Assembly: GCA_025526915.1 (NCBI GenBank)
Contig: JAHLKH010000002.1
Location: 248,001 to 312,000 of the forward strand
Direction of reading: 5' to 3'
Length of the DNA: 64,000 nucleotides
Source of the DNA: Entophlyctis helioformis
Lineage: Eukaryota; Chytridiomycota; Chytridiomycetes; Chytridiales; Chytriomycetaceae
Below the pieces are notes generated by a model. It was not told the DNA's origin, ran no database searches, and worked only from the letters and a program-made list of their open reading frames with translations. Position 1 is the first letter of the stretch, and each line of letters begins with the position of its first letter. The translations under genes were made by a program, and so were the position numbers. Of the stretch, positions 8,591 through 38,001 are shown one piece after another.

Positions 8591-8864
8591 TGGCTGCTGT
8601 GTCTCGCTGCCCGTTTGGTGAATAAATACGTGCTGGGATGGCAGACGCTCGTTGGCACAGATCTCAGTTCAACGCTGTGCACCATGGCATGCCGTGTCTG
8701 TGCATGTCCCACATTCTCATGTGTTGTGATGGCGCTTGTTGGACGCGGTCGCTTCGAGTGGATCTTGTCCGGACAACAACAAAGCGAGCAAGCAGCTGTG
8801 ACGATGACGACGAAGCGACAGACTGCAATCAACGCAGGCACAGCAGCAGCAGCCAGCGACGAGC
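8591..8864. other. Intergenic, ABC transporter 3' end to ankyrin copy 1
   Basis: About 270 bp. An ATG at about 8806 opens an out-of-frame start relative to the ankyrin protein. The last part (about 8820-8864) resembles the 5' coding region of ankyrin copy 2 but is shifted in frame. I see no other feature. Confidence 0.4.
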
Positions 8865-10134
8865 ATGTGCGCAGTCGTCGAGCAGGTCGCTGGAGCGAGT
8901 GGCAGCCAAGCCGTCGAGCCAGGACAGCCACGACAGCTAGCGGCAACGACTGCACAGCCAGGTGTGCCTCGCTATGTGGTGCCGCCAGCCGCCGGCGACC
9001 TTGCGTTCGGCAGCAGCCACTGGGACCGCAAGCCCGCCGAGATCCACGCCTTGATCCTCAAGCACGCCAGCCCGCTCACTCGCTTCCTCAACGGCCTGCT
9101 CGGGGACACGGCCACACTCGACCGAGCGATCAAGCTGCAGCTGTGGATCGAAGCGTTCAAGATGGACTGGCAGGGCGATCTGGCGCTGCTGCCTGACGTT
9201 TGGCTGTCGGCCGACAACGGACTGCTGCTCGCACACTCTCGCTCCATGTACGACCGTCTCTGCAAGCGCTTTCCTCGTTACACTGAGCCCTCCTGTGCGA
9301 GAGACGACGCAGACATCAACAACTACGACTGCAGTTCTTCGACATTTACTTTGACGGCTGCCGCCTCCTTCTCATTCCCATGCGGCACGGCTGGTTCGAT
9401 CTGGTCGACTTTTCGTATCCTATCACACTGTCTCGCATGGCCATCCGCTTTGGATGCCTCGATCTGCTCAAGCATCTCGACGACAAGTACAAGACTCTCA
9501 AACGCTGGATGGCGAAACACGATCCGACAAGCAAGTACTGGCACAGAGCAGTTGAAGAGGCAGCGGGCAATGGACACCTCGATGTTGTGCAGTACCTGTT
9601 TGATCTCGGTGTGACGGGATGCACGACCTATGCAATGGACCTTGCGGCCGAAAACGGCCACCTGCATGTCGTCAAGTGGCTCCACGAGAACACGACGGCA
9701 GGATGCACGACAAAGGCGATGGACCGAGCGGCTGGCAACGGCCATCTGCGTATCGTCAAGTGGTTGCACGAGACCCGCGGTGTAGAGTGTACGCCCCGCG
9801 CAGTGGATGCCGCCATCGGCTCGGAACATGTGGACGTTGTCAAGTACATGCACTCGAAAGGCGGCCGCGCATCAAGCGATATTGTCAAGATGGCGGCAAG
9901 CTATGGTAAAACCAAGGTGCTGCCGTGCTTGTTGGATCTCGGATACGCCGTCGAACTCGAGGCACTCAACCAAGCCAAGACTGCTGCCATTGCTGATATC
10001 CTACTTGGCAGTCTCACCTGGACCGGGCAAAAGAGCTGCTTGCACAAGCGAGACAAGATAATGCCATCAAACAGGCCACCGTTGAGAGACTCCAAGCGAC
10101 GATCCAGGCACTGCAAGCATCAAACATGCAATGA
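8865..10134 (+). pseudogene. F-box-like/ankyrin repeat gene, copy 1 (frame-broken)
   Basis: The N-terminal part contains an F-box-like stretch (KPAEIHALILKHASPLTRFL). The C-terminal part has ankyrin-like repeats of about 28-34 residues (for example LAAENGHLHVVKWLHEN, RAAGNGHLRIVKWLHE). Compared with the second copy at 36192-37542, this copy lacks one G at about 9330 and one A at about 10016, each shifting the frame. The extreme N-terminus (before 8865) is also shifted. Elsewhere the copies are nearly identical. Large families of such ankyrin proteins are common in chytrids; a ubiquitin-ligase adaptor role is only inference from the F-box-like segment. Because each copy is intact where the other is broken, sequencing deletions are as likely as true decay. 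A tRNA-Gln and a retrotransposon lie immediately downstream. Confidence 0.75.
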
Positions 10135-10361
10135 ACGGATGGCCAAGGCTCGCAGTTGGAATGAAGACGCGAATACCGCACTTGCTGCCTTGCCACTGCT
10201 CGTTCCAGAAAGTCACAAAGGAAGCAGTTGTGATGCTCAAGATCGTGCGGAGTGGAGCATCGATGGACACACGGCACACACGCACACGCACACAGCTGCA
10301 AAAACAGAAGCGATCCTGCAGGTTGTGACGAGCAGCAAAAGGAAAGCAGTCGAAGAGGGAA

Positions 10362-10433
10362 GGTCCCACCGAGATTCGAACTCGGGTCTCAGGAATCAGA
10401 ATCCTATGTGATGACCACCTACACTATGGAACC
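10362..10433 (-). tRNA. tRNA-Gln (CTG), copy 1
   Basis: A 72-nt cloverleaf on the minus strand. The acceptor stem pairs GGTTCCA with TGGGACC. The anticodon stem TAGGA/TCCTG encloses the loop TTCTGAT with anticodon CTG (glutamine). The T arm contains GTTCGAATC, a standard B box. There is no intron. An identical gene lies at 37800-37871. The 5' end of this tRNA is 12 bp from the LTR retrotransposon junction at 10445/10446, so the element sits in the Pol III initiation region. Confidence 0.95.
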
Positions 10434-10441
10434 CCCTTCGA

Positions 10442-10445
10442 TCGC
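10442..10445. repeat. Target site duplication, left (tcgc)
   Basis: The 4 bp tcgc precede the left LTR and reappear at 16117-16120 after the right LTR. The unoccupied second locus (37871-37890) reads straight through with a single tcgc followed by attttt, which confirms the insertion point. The duplication is 5 bp (atcgc) if the A at 16116 is assigned to the target rather than to the LTR end. Confidence 0.85.
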
Positions 10446-10738
10446 TGAAACAGGTCGAGCTGCACTACTGGTCAGAGATGCACAAAGGGTTCATTCCAAT
10501 ACACGTCAATGTCACGTACCTGCACTACTGGTCAGAGATGCACAAAGGGTTGACCAGAAGTGCAGGGCGGCGGCGCTTGCGTTTTATAGTCCATGTAGAG
10601 CCCCAAACACGCGGTCGTCTGTGTTGTGTCGCACCAGTAACTATGCCAAATATGGTAACTGAGACACGACACTGTGTGACGGTGGCGTTGTCTGAGGTAT
10701 TGCGCCACCGCTGTGCTAGTCAGACGAGACGCGCAACA
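10446..10738 (-). repeat. 3' LTR of the Ty3/gypsy element
   Basis: A 293-bp repeat beginning TG and ending CA. It contains an internal direct repeat of about 32 bp (cores at about 10462 and 10521, both around ctactggtcagagatgcac). It differs from the other LTR by an A for G in gagac[a/g]cgac, near 10665. Confidence 0.95.
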
Positions 10739-13700
10739 CTCCTCCCTCTCTAGAGGACGTCACGTCCACAGACGACAAGGTCGGGCGAGCGCGTTGCACA
10801 AGGGGAACGCCGCGCGTGTCGCGCGGAATGTCAGTGGCGGCAGGTGCTGGAACCGCGATGCGTGGCGGTGCGGCGGCTGCTGCTGGAACCGGCGTGAGCG
10901 GCTGGCTAGACGAACCTCCGTAGAACACGTCCGTCTGCGGGCTGTAGTACGGTGCGAGGTGGTCGCCGTTGACGAGATTCTCGAGCATGGATCCGTTGGT
11001 GCGCATCAGCCGGTACGTGTCGTTGGGGCAGACCTCCTGCACGATGTATGGTCCGGTCCACGAGAGCTCGAACTTGGTCTGGCCGTGATGCTTCTGCTTG
11101 ACGTACTCGCCCACGACAAACCGATCTGCTTGCACCGTGTGCGTCGTGTTGTAGCGCTCCTCCATGCGCTTGGCCTGAGCCTGCGATCGCACGTACGCGG
11201 CCTGGCGCGCGAGCCCGACCTCATTGAGACTGCGGGCGGTCCAGGCGGCCATGTCCTGCCAGTCCTTGGGATCGTACTCGTGCGGCAGGCTGTCGTCTCC
11301 GAGTAGGCGCGGCTCGACTCCAAACAGCAAGTAGAACGGCGAGTAGCCCGTGACCTCGTGGCGCCGCGTGCGCAGCGCGAGCAGAGCCTGTGGCACGTAC
11401 TTGTCCCAGCGCTCGGGCGATCCGGCGCACAGCTTGGTGAGAATGGCGTTCAGCGACCGGTGCATGCGCTCGACGGCTCCATTCGTGCGCGGATGGTACG
11501 GCGTCGACGGCAGGTGGTTGGTTGCTTGCAGCTTGAGATACTCGCGCAGGCCGTCGTTGGTGAACACGTTCGCGCGATCCGTGATAATCTCGCGTGGTGC
11601 ACCAAACTGGCACAGGATCTCCTCGTAGATGAACTTGGCGGCGGTCGTGGCGTCGCGGTTGGGATACGCCTTGGCCACCACCCAGCGTGTGGCGTAGTCG
11701 ATCGCGGTGAACAGCTGCGTGTTGCCGTCGGCCGTTGCAGGCAGATCCTGCACAATATCCACCCCCCACCTCTCAAAGGGCAGCGCGGCGGGCTCGAGCG
11801 GATGCAGCGGGTTGCGAACCGGCGCGACCAGCGTCTCGTGCAGCTGACAAACGGCACAATGACGCACAAACTGTACCATCTCTGTCTCCATGTTGGCCAC
11901 CAGTAGCGCGTCTGCAGCACGCCATACAGCGAGGCGGCTCCCATGTGGCCCATGGCGCGATGATACTTGTCCATGATGGCGTCGCGCTCCGTAGACACAA
12001 TGAATGGCACCACAAACTCCTTGCCATTGACCGTGACCCGTCGGTGCAGAGTGTCGTCGCGCAGCACAAACAGGCGGTTCTGCTGCGAGATCAGAGCAGT
12101 GTGGCGCGGCGACAGACCGGGCGGCACCGTGTTGTTGAGCTTGAACTGGATCGCGTGCATCGGCCAATCGCGCTCTGGATCCAGCTGTGGCGGGGCGGCT
12201 GGTGCGGCTTCCAGTGGGTGCAGCTGAACAGCGTCTGCGCGAATGCCATACGGGTCAGCATCGATGATCGGGACCGCTGGCTCGGGCAGATCGGTGCGGC
12301 GGGACGGCGCGTCTGCAGGCTGCCACTTGCCAGGCGTGTACTCCAGTGACGGCCCGTAGTGCTCAAACTCCAGCTGCCAACCCCACTGGCGCGGTCCAGG
12401 TCGATTCAGCCCCTTCAGCCACGTCAGCGGCTGGTGATCCGTGTGCACGATCGTGCGGACGCCATCCACATAACAGCGCCAAGTGCGCAGCGCATGAATC
12501 ACAGCCATCGCCTCACGCTCGGTCGCCGAGTAGTTGCGTTCCGCCGGCGACAGCTTGTGCGACAAGAACGCGATCGGCTGGTGGCCCTGCCCATGATCCT
12601 GCGAGAGCACGCCGCCGACGGCATCCTGGCTGGCGTCCGTCCAGATGTGCATCGGCTTGGAAAGTCCGGCGCAGCGCAGACGGGCGCCGAGACGAGCGCG
12701 TCCTTGAGTGCCTGGAACGCCGCCATCTCGTCCGGACCCATCGCGAACGGCACGTCCTTGCGCGTCAATCGATTCAGCGGGATTGCGATGCGTCCGTAGT
12801 TGCGCACGAACCGCCGGTAGTAGTTGCACAGGCCTAGGAATGATTGCAACTGCACAAGCGACTCCGGGACAGGCCAGCTGGCGATCGCCTCCAGCTTGCG
12901 CGGATCCGGCCGAATGCCCGCGGCTGACACCAGGTGGCCGCAGTACTCGACCTCGTCCAGGCCAAACCGACACTTCTTGGCGTTGGCGACCAGCCCGTAC
13001 TTGGCCAGCCGCTCAAACACCAGCCGGACGCGCCGCTGCAGCTCCTCGTCGTCAGGCGCATAGATGAGAATGTCGTCCAGATAAACGATGCAAATCTCAT
13101 CCACGAGACCTACCAGCACACGATTCATCATGCGCTGGTAGGTCGCGGGGGCGTTGCGCAGGCCGAATGGCATCGCCAGGTACTCGAACTGGCCGTACCG
13201 CGTGTTGAACGCCGTGTACTGCACCGAATCGGCCGCCATCGGCACCTGCTGGTAGCCAGACTGCATGTCCAGCACGGCGAAACGGCGCATGCCATGCAGC
13301 CGATCCAAGTTATCGTCGATCCTCGGCAGGCCCGTCGCGTCCGCCTTGGTCTGCTGGTTGAGTGCGCGGTAGTCGACGCACATGCGCAGCGTGCCGTCCT
13401 TCTTCTTGACAAACAGGATCGGCAGCGACCACGGGCTGCTGCTGGGGCGGATGACGCCAGCCTCCAGCAGCGCGATCAGCTGCTTGCGAACCTCGTCCAG
13501 CTCGCGCGGGCTCATGCGGTACGCCTGGCGCTTGACCGGCGTGGCGTCCAACAGCTCGATGCGGTGCACGCCGTGCTCGCCCAGCTGGGCCAGCTCCTTG
13601 GAGATCTTGAGCTTGCTGCCAGCGGGCGGCAGGACGCCGGGAAACTCCGCGCGCAGCGTCTCGACCCACTCGGGGAACGAGCCGTCCTCCTCGGGCGTGG

Positions 13701-14286
13701 CGGCCAGCTCAAACAGGCTGACGGCCCACTCAATCTGGCCGCGCTTGTTGGCCCACTTGAACTGCTCGTATGACATGAGCTCGACCGAGCTGGTGGCGAG
13801 CGACGACGACGCGGGTGGCGGCTTGGCATCGGCCATCACAATGGGGCCGCGGGGCACGTTGGCGACGAGCTGCCCGTCCTTGCCAAACGTCCAGTTGGCC
13901 TTGACGGCCTCGAGCCATGGCAGGCCCAGCACCAAGTCGTGGTGCTTGTCAATGGGCGCGACAAAGGCGTCCAAACGTCCGAGCGCCAGGCCGTCAGGCG
14001 TGTGCAACTCGAGAACACAGGCGTCGGACAGCGTGATGCGGTCGGACCCATCGCCCAGCCGGAGCGGAACGGGCTGGGGCAGCTTGTACGGCGTGGCGAG
14101 TCCCTTGGCCACAAGCTGCTGACAGAGGCTGATGCCTACAAAGTTGGCCCCTGCGCCAGAGTCGCCAAGCGCAGTGGCAGGAACAGATCCAATGGCCACC
14201 TTGAACCGACGAAGGTGGCGCGTTTTCGGCGAAAAATCGAGCTTGAACAGATCAGGGCCAGCTGGCTTGCTGGCTGGCGGCAGCAC
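10716..14286 (-). CDS. pol: Retrotransposon pol: protease, RT, RNase H, integrase (frame-broken)
   Basis: On the minus strand an aspartic protease core (GDSGAGANF) is followed by reverse transcriptase with the FVKKKDGTLRMCVDYRALN block and catalytic YLDD. RNase H follows (HIWTDASQDAVGG, ATEREAMAV, HTDHQPL). The integrase has a zinc-binding HHCC region (about 11830-11990), DDE acidic residues (VDIVQDL; IITDRANVF; Glu in AVERMHRS) and a GPY/F module (WTGPYIVQEV). The frame is interrupted by apparent one-base losses near 12661 (RT to RNase H) and near 11895 (inside the integrase zinc region). The C-terminal tail is Ala/Pro-rich without a chromodomain. How pol is expressed relative to gag (stop at 14378) is not resolved. 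Confidence 0.92.
10739..10751 (-). other. Polypurine tract of the retrotransposon
   Basis: On the minus strand AGAGAGGGAGGAG directly abuts the 3' LTR, the expected primer site for plus-strand DNA synthesis. The pol frame reads across it and ends inside the LTR at about 10716. Confidence 0.85.
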
Positions 14287-14377
14287 TGGCGGCGGCGGCC
14301 CAGAAGAAGACGAATGAGGGGATATGGCAACCGGACATGGCAGTGGTTGTGTATGCGTGTCTTCATTCGCACCACAA

Positions 14378-15777
14378 TCACCGGCATGCCGGCCCCGTCA
14401 GTCGTCGGCGTCGGCATTGGGGCCCGAGCTGCTTGGACCAGATCTCGGGACCGCGGATGGCGAGGCCGGCGACACTCCGAAACCGAGACTGCGCAGGGCG
14501 TCGCAGATCAGCAGCCGAGAACGAGTGCAGCTGCGCAGGTGGATGGTTGTTGTGCTGCTTGAAGCGGAACGTTGAGCGACAGCCCTGTCGGTGGCTGCCG
14601 ACGCCGCGGCACGTGTAGCACATTCTGCGGTCATTGGCGCCACTTCTCGCGGCCTGCTGATTGGGGAACGGGTTGGCCGACGATCCTTGAGATGGCACCA
14701 GCGCGGCAGCTGCGGGTGGCTGCAGCTGTGACAGATCCATGGGCCACGGGCCTGTGTTACTGGCGATGGGCTTGGGCAGCGGGCCGTTGCGCAGGATGTC
14801 GTCAACAGTGGGGATGAAGTCGCACACTTGGGCATAGTCCATCGCGCGGAATCTCAGCTCGCGGCGCACCTCGGAGGCATACTGCCCGTACAAGCCGCGT
14901 ATGATCACCTCGGCCAGCCAGTTGTTGTGCACTTCCGAGTCCAAGCCTGCGGCCATCATCTCAAACCGTGCCACGTACTGAGCGCCAGACTCCTTCTCGC
15001 CTTGCTTTGTGTTAACGAGGGCGTCCTTGACTCGACGGGTCATATCGGGTGGCGTAAACGCGGCATCGAAGGCGGCGAGAAACGTGGCGGGGTGGACGAC
15101 CTTGTTGCGGCGCAGGTGGCGAGTCAGCCACTGACCGGCGATCCCGACGAAGGCAGGGTGCAGCAGGGCGGTCAACTCGGCACTCGATGCGGTCTTGTAG
15201 AGCCCGAAGAACTGCTCCAGCAGGCGGCGGAAATCGGTGGCCGCCACAAGCTGCTCCGGCAGACCGGCAAACGTGCCGAGGCTGAACTGGCGCCGCACCT
15301 CGCGACTTATCGAGCTGTCTGACGGCGCCGCAGCGGTGGGAACGGGTCTGTCTTGCGGGGCCGGGGACTCGTGGGCCGTGTGCATTGACGGCGACGGGGG
15401 ACGCATCCAAGAAGCGCCACGGCGACGAGCGACCGCGAGAACCGAGCCGACGGTGGCCAGTGGGTTGCCGCACTCGTCCTCGACCACGCGCGCGATGTCA
15501 AACACGAGCTGGGAGCCGCCCTGAGTGGCAAGCCACCACAGGCGGCCGGAGATGGCTCAAGCGTAAACCCTGGCGTGGCGGCGACGTCCTCGATGTGCAG
15601 GATCGCGGCCGCCAGTTGGTGACCGAGGGGGCTCTCGTCCGTCACCATGGGGATCGCCGCGGCAGGGACAGGGGCGGCGTTGGAGGCGCTAGCGGCGGCG
15701 TTGGACGCGGTGGCGTTGGGATCGGCGGCGGCGTCAGCCGCACCATCGGCCGCGTTCGCAGCGGGCGTGGTAGACAT
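14378..15777 (-). CDS. gag: Retrotransposon gag (frame-broken)
   Basis: It begins with ATG at 15777 in an Ala-rich leader. The main capsid-like frame occupies about 15550-14378, with a frame break around 15540-15560. The capsid region has the helical pattern seen in Ty3-type Gag (for example FRRLLEQFFGLYKTAS). Near the C-terminus is a zinc-knuckle-like motif, CYTCRGVGSHRQGC, whose spacing CX2CX5HX3C departs from the usual CX2CX4HX4C. Gag forms the virus-like particle and binds element RNA. It lies directly downstream of the 5' LTR and PBS. Confidence 0.82.
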
Positions 15778-15805
15778 GGGGGAACAGCGGAAGGCAGCTG
15801 GTAGA

Positions 15806-15822
15806 GTATACCAGTGCTACCA
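15806..15822 (-). other. Probable primer binding site
   Basis: One nucleotide inside the 5' LTR the minus strand reads TGGTAGCACTGG, starting with the TGG expected to pair with the CCA end of a primer tRNA. TGGTAGC matches the start of initiator-Met PBS sequences used by Ty elements, but the match weakens after 7 nt. The primer identity is unproven. Confidence 0.5.
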
Positions 15823-15823
15823 G

Positions 15824-16116
15824 TGAAACAGGTCGAGCTGCACTACTGGTCAGAGATGCACAAAGGGTTCATTCCAATACACGTCAATGTCACGTACCTG
15901 CACTACTGGTCAGAGATGCACAAAGGGTTGACCAGAAGTGCAGGGCGGCGGCGCTTGCGTTTTATAGTCCATGTAGAGCCCCAAACACGCGGTCGTCTGT
16001 GTTGTGTCGCACCAGTAACTATGCCAAATATGGTAACTGAGACGCGACACTGTGTGACGGTGGCGTTGTCTGAGGTATTGCGCCACCGCTGTGCTAGTCA
16101 GACGAGACGCGCAACA
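15824..16116 (-). repeat. 5' LTR of the Ty3/gypsy element
   Basis: A 293-bp partner of 10446-10738, identical apart from one noted base. It includes the same internal direct repeat. After it the tcgc target duplication (16117-16120) rejoins the sequence homologous to ankyrin/tRNA copy 2 (atttttcgg...caaataccagg). Confidence 0.95.
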
Positions 16117-16321
16117 TCGCATTTTTCGGCAATGACATACAAATACCAGGTTGCAAAGCGATACCACAAACAGGAGATTTCAATACGTTTGTATCCACAT
16201 GACAACTTGAGCTGGCTATTGCAAGAGAGTGTATGATGGAAATGGTTCATTCATGGAATTGTGTTCAGATGATGAGGAAAGGAGTCTAGAGGGAAAGCGA
16301 AAGAAACAAAGAGTCGAGACT

Positions 16322-19202
16322 TTAGGCGATCGACTTGTACATGGCCTCAATCTGGGCGGCGTAGAAAGCCTTGGCCTCGTGGCGCTTGAGCTTGAAGGTG
16401 GGCGAGAGGAGGCCGCTCTCGGGGGTCATGAGGGTGCTGCTGAGGTGGATGGCGCGGATGTTCTCAAAGCCCTTGAGGTCGTTCTGCTTGCCGTATGCAA
16501 TGAGGGTCTTGAGGAGGATCTTGGAAACCTCCTGGTCCTGGCAGAGCTCGACATACGACTTGCCGGTGATGCCCTGCTCGGCGGCCCACTTGGGGAAGGT
16601 CTCCTCGTCGGGGATGATCACACCAACGACGGCAGACTGGAGCGAGTCGCCGTACACGAAAGCCTGGGCGACGGCCTCGTGCTTCTGGTAGATGATCTCG
16701 ACCTTCTCAGGAGCAATGTACTCGCCCTGGGAGAGCTTGAAGATGTGCTTGACACGGTCGATGATGACCAGGCGGCCCTGGGCGTCCCAGAGACCAATGT
16801 CACCAGTGTGGCACCAGCCGTCGGCGTCGAGGGTCTCGGCGGTCTTGGCAGGCTCCTTGTAGTAGCCAGAGAAGACGTTGGAGCCACGGATGCAGATCTC
16901 ACCGCGGGGGTGGGGCTTGTCGGCAGAGGTGTAGTTGAGGTTGGGCACGTCAATGAGCTTGATCTCACAGTGGGGCATGGGGACACCAATGTGGCCCGAG
17001 GTGAGGTCCTCGAAGATGGTGGTGCAGGCAGCAGCCGAGGTCTCAGTCTGGCCGTAGCCCTCAGTGAGCTCGGCAGAGAAGCAGATGCGGAGGAAGTCAA
17101 TGACGTCCTTGGAGATGGGGGCGGCACCGGTGAGGAGGTACTTGACGCGACCGCCGAGACGAGCGCGGACCTTGGCAAAGACAAGGGCGTCCCAGAAGGG
17201 GTGCTTGATGTAGCCGTGGGTGAGGTTCTCCTTCTTGGCGGCGTAAGCCATGTTGAAGAGCGAGGTGGCAATGCCGCCAGCAGCCTTGGCGTTGGCAAGG
17301 ACCTTGTCGTAGATGCGGTTGTAGAGACGGGGCACGGACACGAAGATGGTGGGCTTGAGCTCGGCAACGTCGTCGAGGAGCTTGAGGGTGTCGCCCTGGT
17401 AGAAGCCAACCTGGCCGCCGACGTTGACGAGGGCAGCCTGGATGGTGCGCTCGAAGATGTGGGCGAGCGGCAGGTACGAGATGTGCACGTCGTTGTGGTC
17501 AAAGTCGTACACGTTCTTGGTCTGCTTGTGGAGATCGACACCAGCCTTGAACGACAGGATGTTCTTGTGGCTGAGGATGACACCCTTGGGGAGGCCGGTG
17601 GTGCCAGAGGTGAAGCAGATGGTGGCGACGGTCTCGCCGTTGGTGGGGACGGCCGGGACGGGGGCGGCAGCACCCTCGGCCTCGATCGCCTTGATCGAGA
17701 CGACCTCGATGCCGGCAGCCTTGCCCTTGGCGATCAGCTCCTCCGAGGGAGTGTCCATGATGACCACAACCTTGAGGCTCTTGAGCTTGAGCGCGAGCTC
17801 GACGAGCTGGGCGGCCTTGTCGGCGGTGGCAAGGACGACGGGGGTCTCGGTGAGCTGGAGGATGTACTCGATGGCCTCATCGCCGAGGGTGTCGTAGAGG
17901 GGGACGGTGGTCCACGAGTACATGTAGCACGACTGCTCGCCAATGACCCACTCGGCGCGGTTCACGGAGAAGAGACCGACGTTGTCGCCAGTCTTGAGAC
18001 CGCGCTTGAGGAGACCAGATCTGGTGGGGGGAAGAGGGCGATCAGGTCAGCAAGTGTGGTCGCGACAGCCGTGGCCAGCCAGGTGCACGCACCCGAGGTT
18101 CTGGATGCGGGTGTAGACCTGGTTGTACGACTCCCACTCGTAGGGGCCTGCACGTCGTTGGCGCGGGTTGGTTGGCGCGACGAGACGCGACGGCAGGGCA
18201 GACAGGAGCAAAAGGAGGCGTCGACGACGTCACGAGGACGGGCAAACACGTCAGCACAAGATGGTCACAAGACTGCATCGGCCGATAACATCAACCGCAG
18301 CGACAGCGGCAGGACGCCATGCTTGCTTACCAGCGACGCCGTCGACAACGGGGCGGGTGCCGAGGAAAGGAGCATCGCCTGTGCACGGGAGCGCCGGGAG
18401 GGATTGTTGTAGAGACGGGCAGATGGGCAGACAGAGACAGAGAGACAGAGAGACAGACGGCGGTTAGTGGCTGCAATGCAATCACATGACAGTGGAGGCG
18501 CAAGATGACGAGAGACAGCGCGCGCACGAGACAGAGGCCGACGGCAGGAGACGCCGACGGCAAGAGACACGCACCAGCAATGCGGCGGCCCTTGAGGAAG
18601 TTCTCGTGGAGGTTGGTGACGCCCTCGGGGAGCGTGACGAGGGGGCCGAGGGGCGTCTGGCGGTAGCGGCGGGCCTGCAGAGGTGCGGTGAGACAGGCGG
18701 CACGAGAAGGCAGCACGAGACGGGCAACGGCAGCGAGGCAGACGGGCAGCACGAGACAGCGGCGCAACGATAAGCGAGTTGATCGGACGGTCAGTATGGA
18801 GACGGCCGACGAGCAACAGCAGCAGCAACAGCAGGAACAACAGCAGCAGGGGCAGGATGATGAGGAGGAGGAGCAGCAGTGGCAGTGGCCCACGGATCTC
18901 GCTGTCGCCCGCCGGCCCGCCCGCACATGCACGGCACATGCATGGGACATGCACGGGCCAGGGCGTATGGCTGCTGCACGGCGCAACCATACGAGCGACC
19001 GGGCGACTGAGCAACCGACCAAGCACACGGCGCACGGCGCACGGAGCACGGCGACAACTATAGTTGCGGGGGGTGGGACAGGCGGCGCTCGTGCTCGACT
19101 TACTTTGCCCTCTCCGGGCTTGGCGTCGCCGACCTCGACGGTGTAGACGGCGGTCTTGGAGACACGGTCGGTGTCGATGTTGAGGAACGATGCAAACGAC
19201 AT
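16322..19202 (-). CDS. Long-chain acyl-CoA synthetase (ACSL/FAA type)
   Basis: Minus-strand exons 19104-19202, 18575-18674, 18093-18147 and 16322-18020 join in phase to 650 aa, the usual length for ACSL/FAA enzymes. It activates fatty acids to acyl-CoA with ATP, via acyl-AMP. Diagnostic motifs are the AMP-binding loop FTSGTTGLPKG, the GYGQTETSA box, and DGWCHTGDIG followed by DRVKHIFKLSQGEYIAPEKVE, the fatty-acid signature region. The N-terminus (MSFASFLNIDTDRVSKTAVY) has no obvious signal; the tail lacks a clear PTS1, ending KSIA. Introns 1 and 2 are about 430 nt, long for this window, and hold low-complexity tracts including a CAG/CAA-type repeat near 18810-18880. Peroxisomal versus ER location cannot be told from sequence. 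Very secure family call. Confidence 0.95.
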
Positions 19203-36159: not shown

Positions 36160-36191
36160 TTTCTTGATCTTGGGCGTGATTGGACGTGACG

Positions 36192-37542
36192 ATGCAGACA
36201 ACGCAGACGACAGGCAACACAGACGCAGACGCAGCAGCAGTCAGCAACGAGCAGCCGGCTGTGGTCGAGCAGGTCGTTGGAGCGAGCGGCAGCCAAGCCG
36301 TCGAGCCAGGACAGCCAGGACAGCCACGACAGCCAGGACAGCCATCAGCAGCAACGACCGCACAGCCAGGCGTGCCTCGCTATGTGGTGCCGCCAGCCGC
36401 CGGCGACCTTGCGTTCAGGAGCAGCCACTGGGACCGCAAGCCCGCCGAGATCCACGCCATGATCCTCAAGGCAGCCGGCCCGCTCACTCGCTTCCTGTGT
36501 GGCCTGCTCGGGACAAGGCCACACTCGACCGAGCGACCAAGCTGCAGCTGTGGATCGAAGCGTTCAAGATGGACTGGCAGGGCGATCTGGCGCTGCTGCC
36601 TGACGTTGACCTGACGGCCGACAACGGACTGCTGCTCGCACACTCTCGCTCCATGTACGACCGTCTCTGCAAGCGCTTTCCTCGTTACACTGAGCCCTCC
36701 TGTGCGAGAGACGACGCATACAACAACAACTACGACTGGCAGTTCTTCGACATTTACTTTGACGGCTGCCGCCTCCTTCTCATTCCCATGCGGCACGGCT
36801 GGTTCGATCTGGTCGACTTTTCGTATCCTATCACACTGTCTCGCATGGCCATCCGCTTTGGATGCCTCGATCTGCTCAAGCATCTCGACGACAAGTACAA
36901 GATCTCCAACGCTGGATGGCGAAACACGATCCGACAAGCAAGTACTGGCACAGAGCAGTTGAAGAGGCAGCGGGCAATGGACACCTCGATGTTGTGCAGT
37001 ACCTGTTTGATCTCGGTGTGACGGGATGCACGACCTATGCAATGGACCTTGCGGCCGAAAACGGCCACCTGCATGTCGTCAAGTGGCTCCACGAGAACAC
37101 GACGGCAGGATGCACGACAAAGGCGATGGACCGAGCGGCTGGCAACGGCCATCTGCGTATCGTCAAGTGGTTGCACGAGACCCGCGGTGTAGAGTGTACG
37201 CCCCGCGCAGTGGATGCCGCCATCGGCTCGGAACATGTGGACGTTGTCAAGTACATGCACTCGAAAGGCGGCCGCGCATCAAGCGATATTGTCAAGATGG
37301 CGGCAAGCTATGGTAAAACCAAGGTGCTGCCGTGCTTGTTGGATCTCGGATACGCCGTCGAACTCGAGGCACTCAACCAAGCCAAGACTGCTGCCATTGC
37401 TGATATCCTACTTGGCAGCCTCACACTGGACCGGGCAAAAGAGCTGCTTGCACAAGCGAGACAAGATAATGCCATCAAACAGGCCACCGTTGAGAGGCTC
37501 CAAGCGACCATCCAGGCACGGCAAGCATCAAACATGCGATGA
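36192..37542 (+). pseudogene. F-box-like/ankyrin repeat gene, copy 2 (frame-broken)
   Basis: Paralogue of 8865-10134. ATG 36192 (MQTTQTTGNTDADAAA) leads into the F-box-like segment KPAEIHAMILKAAGPLTRFL. One G is missing relative to copy 1 at about 36510, and one base near 36903-36909, so the frame shifts twice; copy 1 is intact at both places. Five or so ankyrin-like repeats follow, and the true tail LAQARQDNAIKQATVERLQ is read here to TGA at 37540. The two loci share the downstream tRNA-Gln and at least 40 bp beyond it, so the unit was duplicated as about 1.7 kb. Only this copy lacks the retrotransposon. Confidence 0.75.
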
Positions 37543-37799
37543 ATGGAATGGCAAGGCTCGCAGTTGGAATGAAGACGCGAATACCGCACTTGCTGCCTTG
37601 CCACTGCTCGTTCCAGAAAGTCACAAAGGAAGCAGTTGTGATGCTCAAGATCGTGCGAGTGAGCCTTGCTGGACAGACGAAGCGGAGCATCGATGGCAGT
37701 CACAACAGAGGCACACACGCACACACGCACACAGCTGCAAAAACAGAAGCGATCTGCAGGTTGTGACGAGCAGCAAAAGGAAAGCAGTCGAAGAGGGAA

Positions 37800-37871
37800 G
37801 GTCCCACCGAGATTCGAACTCGGGTCTCAGGAATCAGAATCCTATGTGATGACCACCTACACTATGGAACC
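37800..37871 (-). tRNA. tRNA-Gln (CTG), copy 2
   Basis: Identical in sequence to 10362-10433: 72 nt, acceptor GGTTCCA/TGGGACC, anticodon CTG. The sequence upstream of its 5' end (37872 onward: ccccttcgatcgcattttt) is the empty counterpart of the retrotransposon insertion site. Confidence 0.95.
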
Positions 37872-38001
37872 CCCTTCGATCGCATTTTTCGCCAATGGCA
37901 TACAAATACCAGGTAGCAAAGATGCAAACGCATTCACGACTCGCATTCCTGCAAAGTGACGACTGCAGGCGACGGGCCAATTGACGGCATGCTTCATTCC
38001 G

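Follow-up and report, generated by a model that had tools for sequence, protein, structure and literature searches.

Ty3/gypsy retrotransposons immediately upstream of tRNA genes in the chytrid Entophlyctis helioformis

Background

Targeting of tRNA genes has been reported for several retrotransposons, namely Ty3, Ty3p, Tj1, Beta/Tca8, Tyl3, Tyl6, Ylt1 and DGLT-A; the part of the table covered here has no chytrid entry (PMC5911963, Table 1; this paper and, unless stated otherwise, those below are cited for the portions of their text that were covered). Here we describe a Ty3/gypsy element that spans positions 10446-16116, on the minus strand, of a 64-kb stretch of DNA from the chytrid Entophlyctis helioformis (the whole stretch is called the window below) and that adjoins a tRNA-Gln gene. 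Judging by its surroundings and those of its relatives in the same genome, this element very probably belongs to a Ty3/gypsy clade in which the integrase is guided to the site where transcription of tRNA genes begins.

Ty3 of Saccharomyces cerevisiae integrates at positions -6/-2 relative to the start site, while TFIIIB occupies -15 to -32, in a cryo-electron microscopy structure where the chromodomain (446-511) binds Brf1 (PMC8632968). It produces a 5-bp duplication and carries a chromodomain, whereas the chytrid element has a 4-bp duplication and no detectable chromodomain. Tj1 of Schizosaccharomyces japonicus is likewise a Ty3/gypsy element, and 13 of 17 new inserts lie at most 12 bp upstream of tRNA genes; unlike the chytrid element, which has a tRNA-Met primer site, it primes its own reverse transcription (PMC4600332). 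Beta/Tca8, Tyl3, Tyl6 and Ylt1 differ in belonging to Saccharomycotina hosts, Candida albicans and Yarrowia lipolytica (PMC5911963). Set beside the chytrid elements by description only, DGLT-A of dictyostelid amoebae comes nearest to them in behaviour and in the composition of its integrase. It is a Ty3/gypsy element without a chromodomain; in D. discoideum and D. purpureum it is found 10-34 bp upstream of tRNA genes, and stacking at a single tRNA gene has been noted, although its host is an amoebozoan and its distance in D. lacteum is 55-65 bp; several families of P. pallidum and of the D. fasciculatum group do not target tRNA genes (PMC5006619).

In the open-licence literature, searched by titles and the beginnings of abstracts, we found no chytrid case of targeting to start sites of RNA polymerase III (Pol III). 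The word "tRNA" is absent from the main text of "LTR Retrotransposons in Fungi" (PMC3248453) and the word "chytrid" from PMC7175516. In the literature covered, precise tRNA targeting by Ty3/gypsy elements has thus far been documented in ascomycete yeasts and dictyostelid amoebae, and the chytrid case would place it in an early fungal branch. It also offers, within one nucleus, several targeting and several non-targeting families together with a natural empty site, and makes the need of a chromodomain for TFIIIB-guided integration directly testable.

Genome-wide distribution of the insertions

The genome (29.57 Mb, 482 contigs) was searched with the long terminal repeat (LTR) of the window element, LTR1. 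This search gave 22 matches at 14 loci, and a pattern search with the 26-bp LTR terminus, allowing up to three mismatches, returned the same 22 copies. At ten of the 14 loci the 5' end of a tRNA gene lies 10-17 bp from the LTR edge, and the tRNAs concerned are Gln, Lys, Val, Phe, Ala, Thr, Met, Glu, Phe and Phe. A search with the reverse transcriptase (RT) revealed a sister family with approximately 88% amino-acid identity and others with 53-61%. The LTR of the sister family (LTR2, 315 bp) has 30 matches at 22 loci, 20 of which lie 8-16 bp from a tRNA 5' end. Both loci of LTR3 are adjacent to a tRNA gene (C83, Asp, 19 bp; C160, Leu, 13 bp), as are one of the three loci of LTR3b (C393, Thr, 11 bp; the others are on C72 and C83) and one of the three of LTR7 (C85, Ala, 12 bp), the LTR on C85 being only 86-88% identical to those on C142 and C458. 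The LTR3b and LTR7 loci are those encountered in the stretches of sequence that were read.

Taken together, the five related LTR types are adjacent to a tRNA gene at 34 of 44 loci, with gaps of 8-19 bp and tRNAs for 16 amino acids. Two partial LTR3 matches of 67 bp on C43 and the copy on C425 stand outside this count, as do RT matches on C31, C9 and C430 (67-96% identity); C393 and C425 were read at one end. The 34 measured junctions have a median gap of 12 bp; among them the element on C326 is counted twice, for tRNA-Leu and tRNA-Pro, and C393 was measured separately. Every LTR-adjacent tRNA gene listed presents its 5' end to the LTR, one of these tRNAs (on C21) having been called by ARAGORN without a type. 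The element itself runs along the direction of the tRNA gene at 11 of the 31 LTR1 and LTR2 junctions and opposite to it at 20. Exact 4-bp duplications flank 17 of the 21 tRNA-adjacent insertions compared. Under an assumed and generous number of 1000 tRNA genes, the chance of finding 30 of 40 loci at 8-18 bp is roughly 1e-85; our own tRNA search of the genome scored 63 tRNAs among 551 candidates. The original prediction had proposed Pol III-directed integration from the single insertion in the window, which it regarded as insufficient to prove a preference; other copies were expected to show a peak 5-25 bp before the 5' ends of tRNA genes if the proposal were right and to be scattered without relation to Pol III genes if it were wrong. 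The LTR1 and LTR2 loci bear out the former, and scatter is instead what describes the control families. Three 5S genes were found (C107, C204 and C251, with 47 of 1114 first-look candidates scored), none of them on a contig with an LTR1, LTR2 or LTR3 match.

Other Ty3/gypsy families of the genome served as controls. With approximately 200 bp or more of flank on each side, no tRNA gene was found beside any of the 22 matches of LTR4 examined (of 41), the 21 matches of LTR5 examined (of 45) or the two matches of LTR6 met in the stretches read, that is, beside 0 of 45. Likewise, no tRNA lies in the fetched edges of the elements on C262 and C481, for which LTRs could not be located. These families bear directly on the possibility that insertion was random and that, under selection for compactness of the genome, only the copies beside tRNA genes survived. 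Such selection has indeed been given as the reason why this kind of targeting evolved (PMC5006619). Nevertheless, the control families persist away from tRNA genes, and a window of 8-19 bp could hardly be fixed by selection. Moreover, four of the nine LTR pairs compared are identical and are therefore young insertions. Random insertion followed by selection is thus largely refuted by the control families, and we consider it most improbable.

Several observations weigh against targeting. Ten of the 44 loci have no adjoining tRNA gene, although nine of these ten lie within a few bases of another LTR of the group. The stretches read around C142, C458 and C72, the last of which ends at a contig end, yielded no tRNA, and neither did the 1401 bases read at the copy on C425, which belongs to the 88% family and was covered from one side. 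The four non-adjacent LTR1 loci are copy B on C43, C142, C55:26543 and a solo LTR on C83, and that at C55:26543 is left without an explanation. Exact 4-bp duplications occur at only seven of the 14 LTR1 loci; there is none at C330, C174, C431 and C373, which are all adjacent to a tRNA gene, or at C142, C55 and C163. The left junction on C163 (tRNA-Ala), which belongs to a rearranged copy, is among the ten LTR1 adjacencies. Finally, some loci are copies of each other, and collapsing five similar pairs leaves approximately 29 independent cases.

Some of the apparent exceptions were considered individually. Copy B on C43 was rejected as a counter-example, since it lies 331 bp from a tRNA-Gln gene only because an LTR2, itself 10 bp from the tRNA, intervenes. 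Later insertions stack at the spot already occupied: at C83:12862-18476 (L037, L026), LTRs of three types follow one another beyond a single tRNA-Asp gene, a record of repeated insertion at one position. A right flank of approximately 9.7 kb, which reaches two contig ends, is common to the copies on C142, C55 and C163 at 99.8-100% identity. We had considered them as a longer type of element; given this common flank and the lack of duplications, they were rather rearranged after insertion, and the flank is perhaps a subtelomeric repeat spread by recombination between LTRs. The gag region of the copy on C142 is also longer than that of the window copy, by approximately 2.3 kb (L035:4739-7068), and a 613-codon frame in this extra sequence has no Pfam match.

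The copies among the loci raise another alternative, in which segmental duplication of tRNA loci produced many copies from a small number of insertions. The near flanks of C381 and C55:101361 are identical, as are those of C374 and C151, and other loci are similar. Yet, the insertions lie beside tRNA genes for 16 amino acids, in both orientations and with different duplications, and a paralogous tRNA locus without the element exists (see below). Distinct flanks and duplications refute this explanation for most loci, so that as a general account it has very little to recommend it, and direction to tRNA genes at the time of insertion remains the reading that we favor.

Signals at the insertion sites

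For a profile of the target, 16 sites that carry an exact 4-bp duplication were each rejoined from their two sides, and the duplication was used to align them (a near-duplicate, C315b, was omitted from the 17 available). A TATATA-like hexamer, with at least five of six positions matching, starts 23-29 bp before the duplication at eight of the 16 sites, compared with a mean of 1.0 in shuffled sequences, and none of 2000 shuffles reached eight. A CAA triplet starts at positions 4-6 of the duplication at 12 of the 16 sites (shuffle mean 1.1; 0 of 2000). When the search windows were shifted by -20, -15, -10 or +10 bp, the TATA count fell to 0 and the CAA count to 1-3. Among uninserted tRNA genes, the best hexamer starting 31-41 bp before the gene matched in at least five of six positions in 10 of 18 cases (a count that has no shuffle control). 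Two of the uninserted loci, L128 and L133, closely resemble by eye the sites on C431 and C154, and appear to be additional empty sites.

A TATA-like box approximately 25-30 bp before a CAA start is a feature of Pol III genes of plants and fission yeast. The CAA triplet located approximately 25 bp after the TATA-like box in the chytrid sites therefore likely marks the Pol III start site, and the profile would be, as far as we know, the first sequence picture of chytrid Pol III start sites. The intasome would then dock on the Pol III initiation complex, most likely on TFIIIB (TBP/Brf1/Bdp1) over the TATA-like box, through the C-terminal domain or the tail of the integrase, and the element DNA would be joined at the start site; the TFIIIB docking step is one that we infer. 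Alternatively, the integrase could read the local DNA, be it the TATA-like and CAA signals or a bendable stretch, instead of the Pol III machinery. These signals do flank the insertion sites. Nevertheless, the 4-bp target itself is not conserved, and a CAA is missing from four of the 16 sites. A good TATA-like box is missing from half of them, an absence that also counts against the docking proposed above. In addition, all the direct adjacencies found are to tRNA genes, although combinations of TATA-like and CAA signals would be expected elsewhere in 29.6 Mb (an expectation, not a count). We regard a direct reading of the DNA as unlikely, if less so than the two alternatives above, and favor recognition of the Pol III machinery.

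The empty site in the window

The window contains a paralogous ankyrin/tRNA-Gln locus at 36186-37921, which the original prediction had described as uninterrupted. When the host flanks of the element were joined after removal of one TCGC and aligned to this locus, they were 93% identical over 1743 columns with no gap at the junction; the 64 gap positions of the alignment all lie away from it. The paralogous tRNA-Gln locus is therefore a true empty site. The pair results from a duplication, within 28 kb, of an ankyrin-repeat gene together with its tRNA-Gln gene (8798-10445 and 36186-37921, approximately 93% identity), in which the tRNA is unchanged.

At the occupied site, 11 bp separate the mature 5' end of the tRNA-Gln (10434, as called by ARAGORN) from the LTR. 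Thus, the adjacency described initially holds, and its distance of 12 bp applies only if one counts to the first base of the LTR. Of the 4-5 bp suggested for the target duplication, only the 4-bp version (TCGC) withstood the comparison. The coordinates of these features are collected in Table 1.

Table 1 Features of the element, its target and the empty site in the 64-kb window
Feature	Position	Strand	Basis
tRNA-Gln (anticodon CTG), target gene	10358..10434	-	ARAGORN; Rfam RF00005, 59.5 bits
Target site duplication TCGC, tRNA-proximal copy	10442..10445	.	Sequence; single copy at empty site
3' LTR (LTR1, 293 bp, TG...CA), adjoins tRNA	10446..10738	-	
Open frame with integrase core (rve), SH3-like C-terminal domain and mostly low-confidence tail	10719..12254	-	Pfam; structure model
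Open frame with RNase H and integrase H2C2 zinc finger	11450..12973	-	Pfam
Open frame with reverse transcriptase	12499..14286	-	Pfam; nearest solved relative Ty3 RT, PDB 4ol8, E 8.1e-62
Open frame with Retrotrans_gag	14378..15505	-	Pfam
Primer binding site, 14 bases	15809..15822	-	Hand comparison
5' LTR (LTR1)	15824..16116	-	99.66% to other LTR
Target site duplication TCGC, distal copy	16117..16120	.	Sequence
Acyl-CoA synthetase gene	16322-17965		
Paralogous ankyrin/tRNA-Gln locus, natural empty site	36186..37921	.	Alignment ungapped at junction
tRNA-Gln of empty site	37796..37872	-	ARAGORN

Structure of the element and its integrase

The window element has the features of Metaviridae (Ty3/gypsy): gag followed by RT, RNase H and integrase, LTRs ending in TG...CA, a short target duplication and a tRNA primer site. 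Its LTRs differ at one of 293 bases and TCGC lies on either side of the element. In the internal region, Pfam recognizes gag, RT, RNase H, the H2C2 zinc finger and the integrase core in Ty3/gypsy order. The RT, the RNase H with the zinc finger and the integrase core of this copy occupy three different reading frames, and it thus looks broken in the assembly; in the copy on contig C154, RT and the integrase core lie within one open frame of 1219 codons. The primer binding site is the complement of the 3' end that the tRNA-Met in L042 would have after addition of CCA; this tRNA is initiator Met-like, and element families 2 and 3 share a 12-base core of this site (hand comparison). A 32-bp unit occurs twice in LTR1 (10460-10491 and 10520-10551) with a spacing of 60 bp; shorter forms of LTR1 with a single unit are found in the left LTR on C174, on C381 and at C55:101361, and LTR2 has similar length variants.

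The integrase had been described as lacking a visible chromodomain, and the Pfam scan agrees, with no chromodomain match even at E <= 1 in the integrases of families 1-3. The same scan detected the PF00385 chromodomain in the control elements on C231 (E 2e-5) and C39 (E 6.5e-6). Without a profile-recognizable chromodomain at the integrase C-terminus, families 1-3 do not qualify as chromoviruses. In comparisons of the integrase with the PDB, Ty3 and foamy virus integrase are tied as matches. The SH3-like C-terminal domain corresponds to what is called the GPY motif, and the tail is mostly of low confidence in the structure model. Chain A of Ty3 aligns to the model only up to Ty3 residue 437, and since the comparisons mainly span model residues 86-439 and barely cover the tail, the missing chromodomain match is no proof of absence; the predicted tail may contain a divergent chromodomain. 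As no chromodomain was detected, contact with TFIIIB would differ from that in the Ty3 structure, where the chromodomain meets Brf1. A simple rule, that a chromodomain marks elements which do not target, was considered and discarded: among five non-targeting elements scanned, those on C231 and C39 have one and those on C262, C89 (broken frame) and C481 have none. The absence of a chromodomain is thus not by itself tied to targeting, as the element on C262 and the pieces on C89 and C481 show none either.

Phylogeny of the targeting families

In the RT phylogeny (52 rows), families 1 and 3 group with two JGI-source proteins (100/99), and the control elements on C39, C89 and C297 form a separate group (100/100). 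The tree leaves Ty3 unplaced: it neither makes Ty3 the sister of the chytrid clade nor rejects this relationship, since a tree forced to unite Ty3 and the targeting clade is worse by 22 log units and the joint clade is not rejected by the approximately unbiased test (p = 0.069). IMG/VR, searched with alignment A2, yielded nine distant loci, which were not used. Two histories may be considered. In one of them, a Ty3/gypsy clade of chytrids acquired Pol III start-site targeting separately from Ty3, with an integrase that reaches TFIIIB without a chromodomain. We hold this history to be nearly an even chance, leaning slightly to the doubtful side; if true, it would mean that the same few base pairs are found through a different protein contact. 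In the other, targeting was shared with Ty3 by descent.

Two further arrangements were observed in the sister family. At C326:6017-11792 (L039/L040), a family-2 element has a tRNA-Leu gene on one side and a tRNA-Pro gene on the other, both pointing away from it, at 13 and 12 bp respectively; it lacks a target duplication, and its right flank starts with bases that match the start of the right flank of the copy on C21. The tRNA-Tyr genes of L075 and L076 have a predicted 10-base intron, and an LTR2 lies 8 bp upstream of both.

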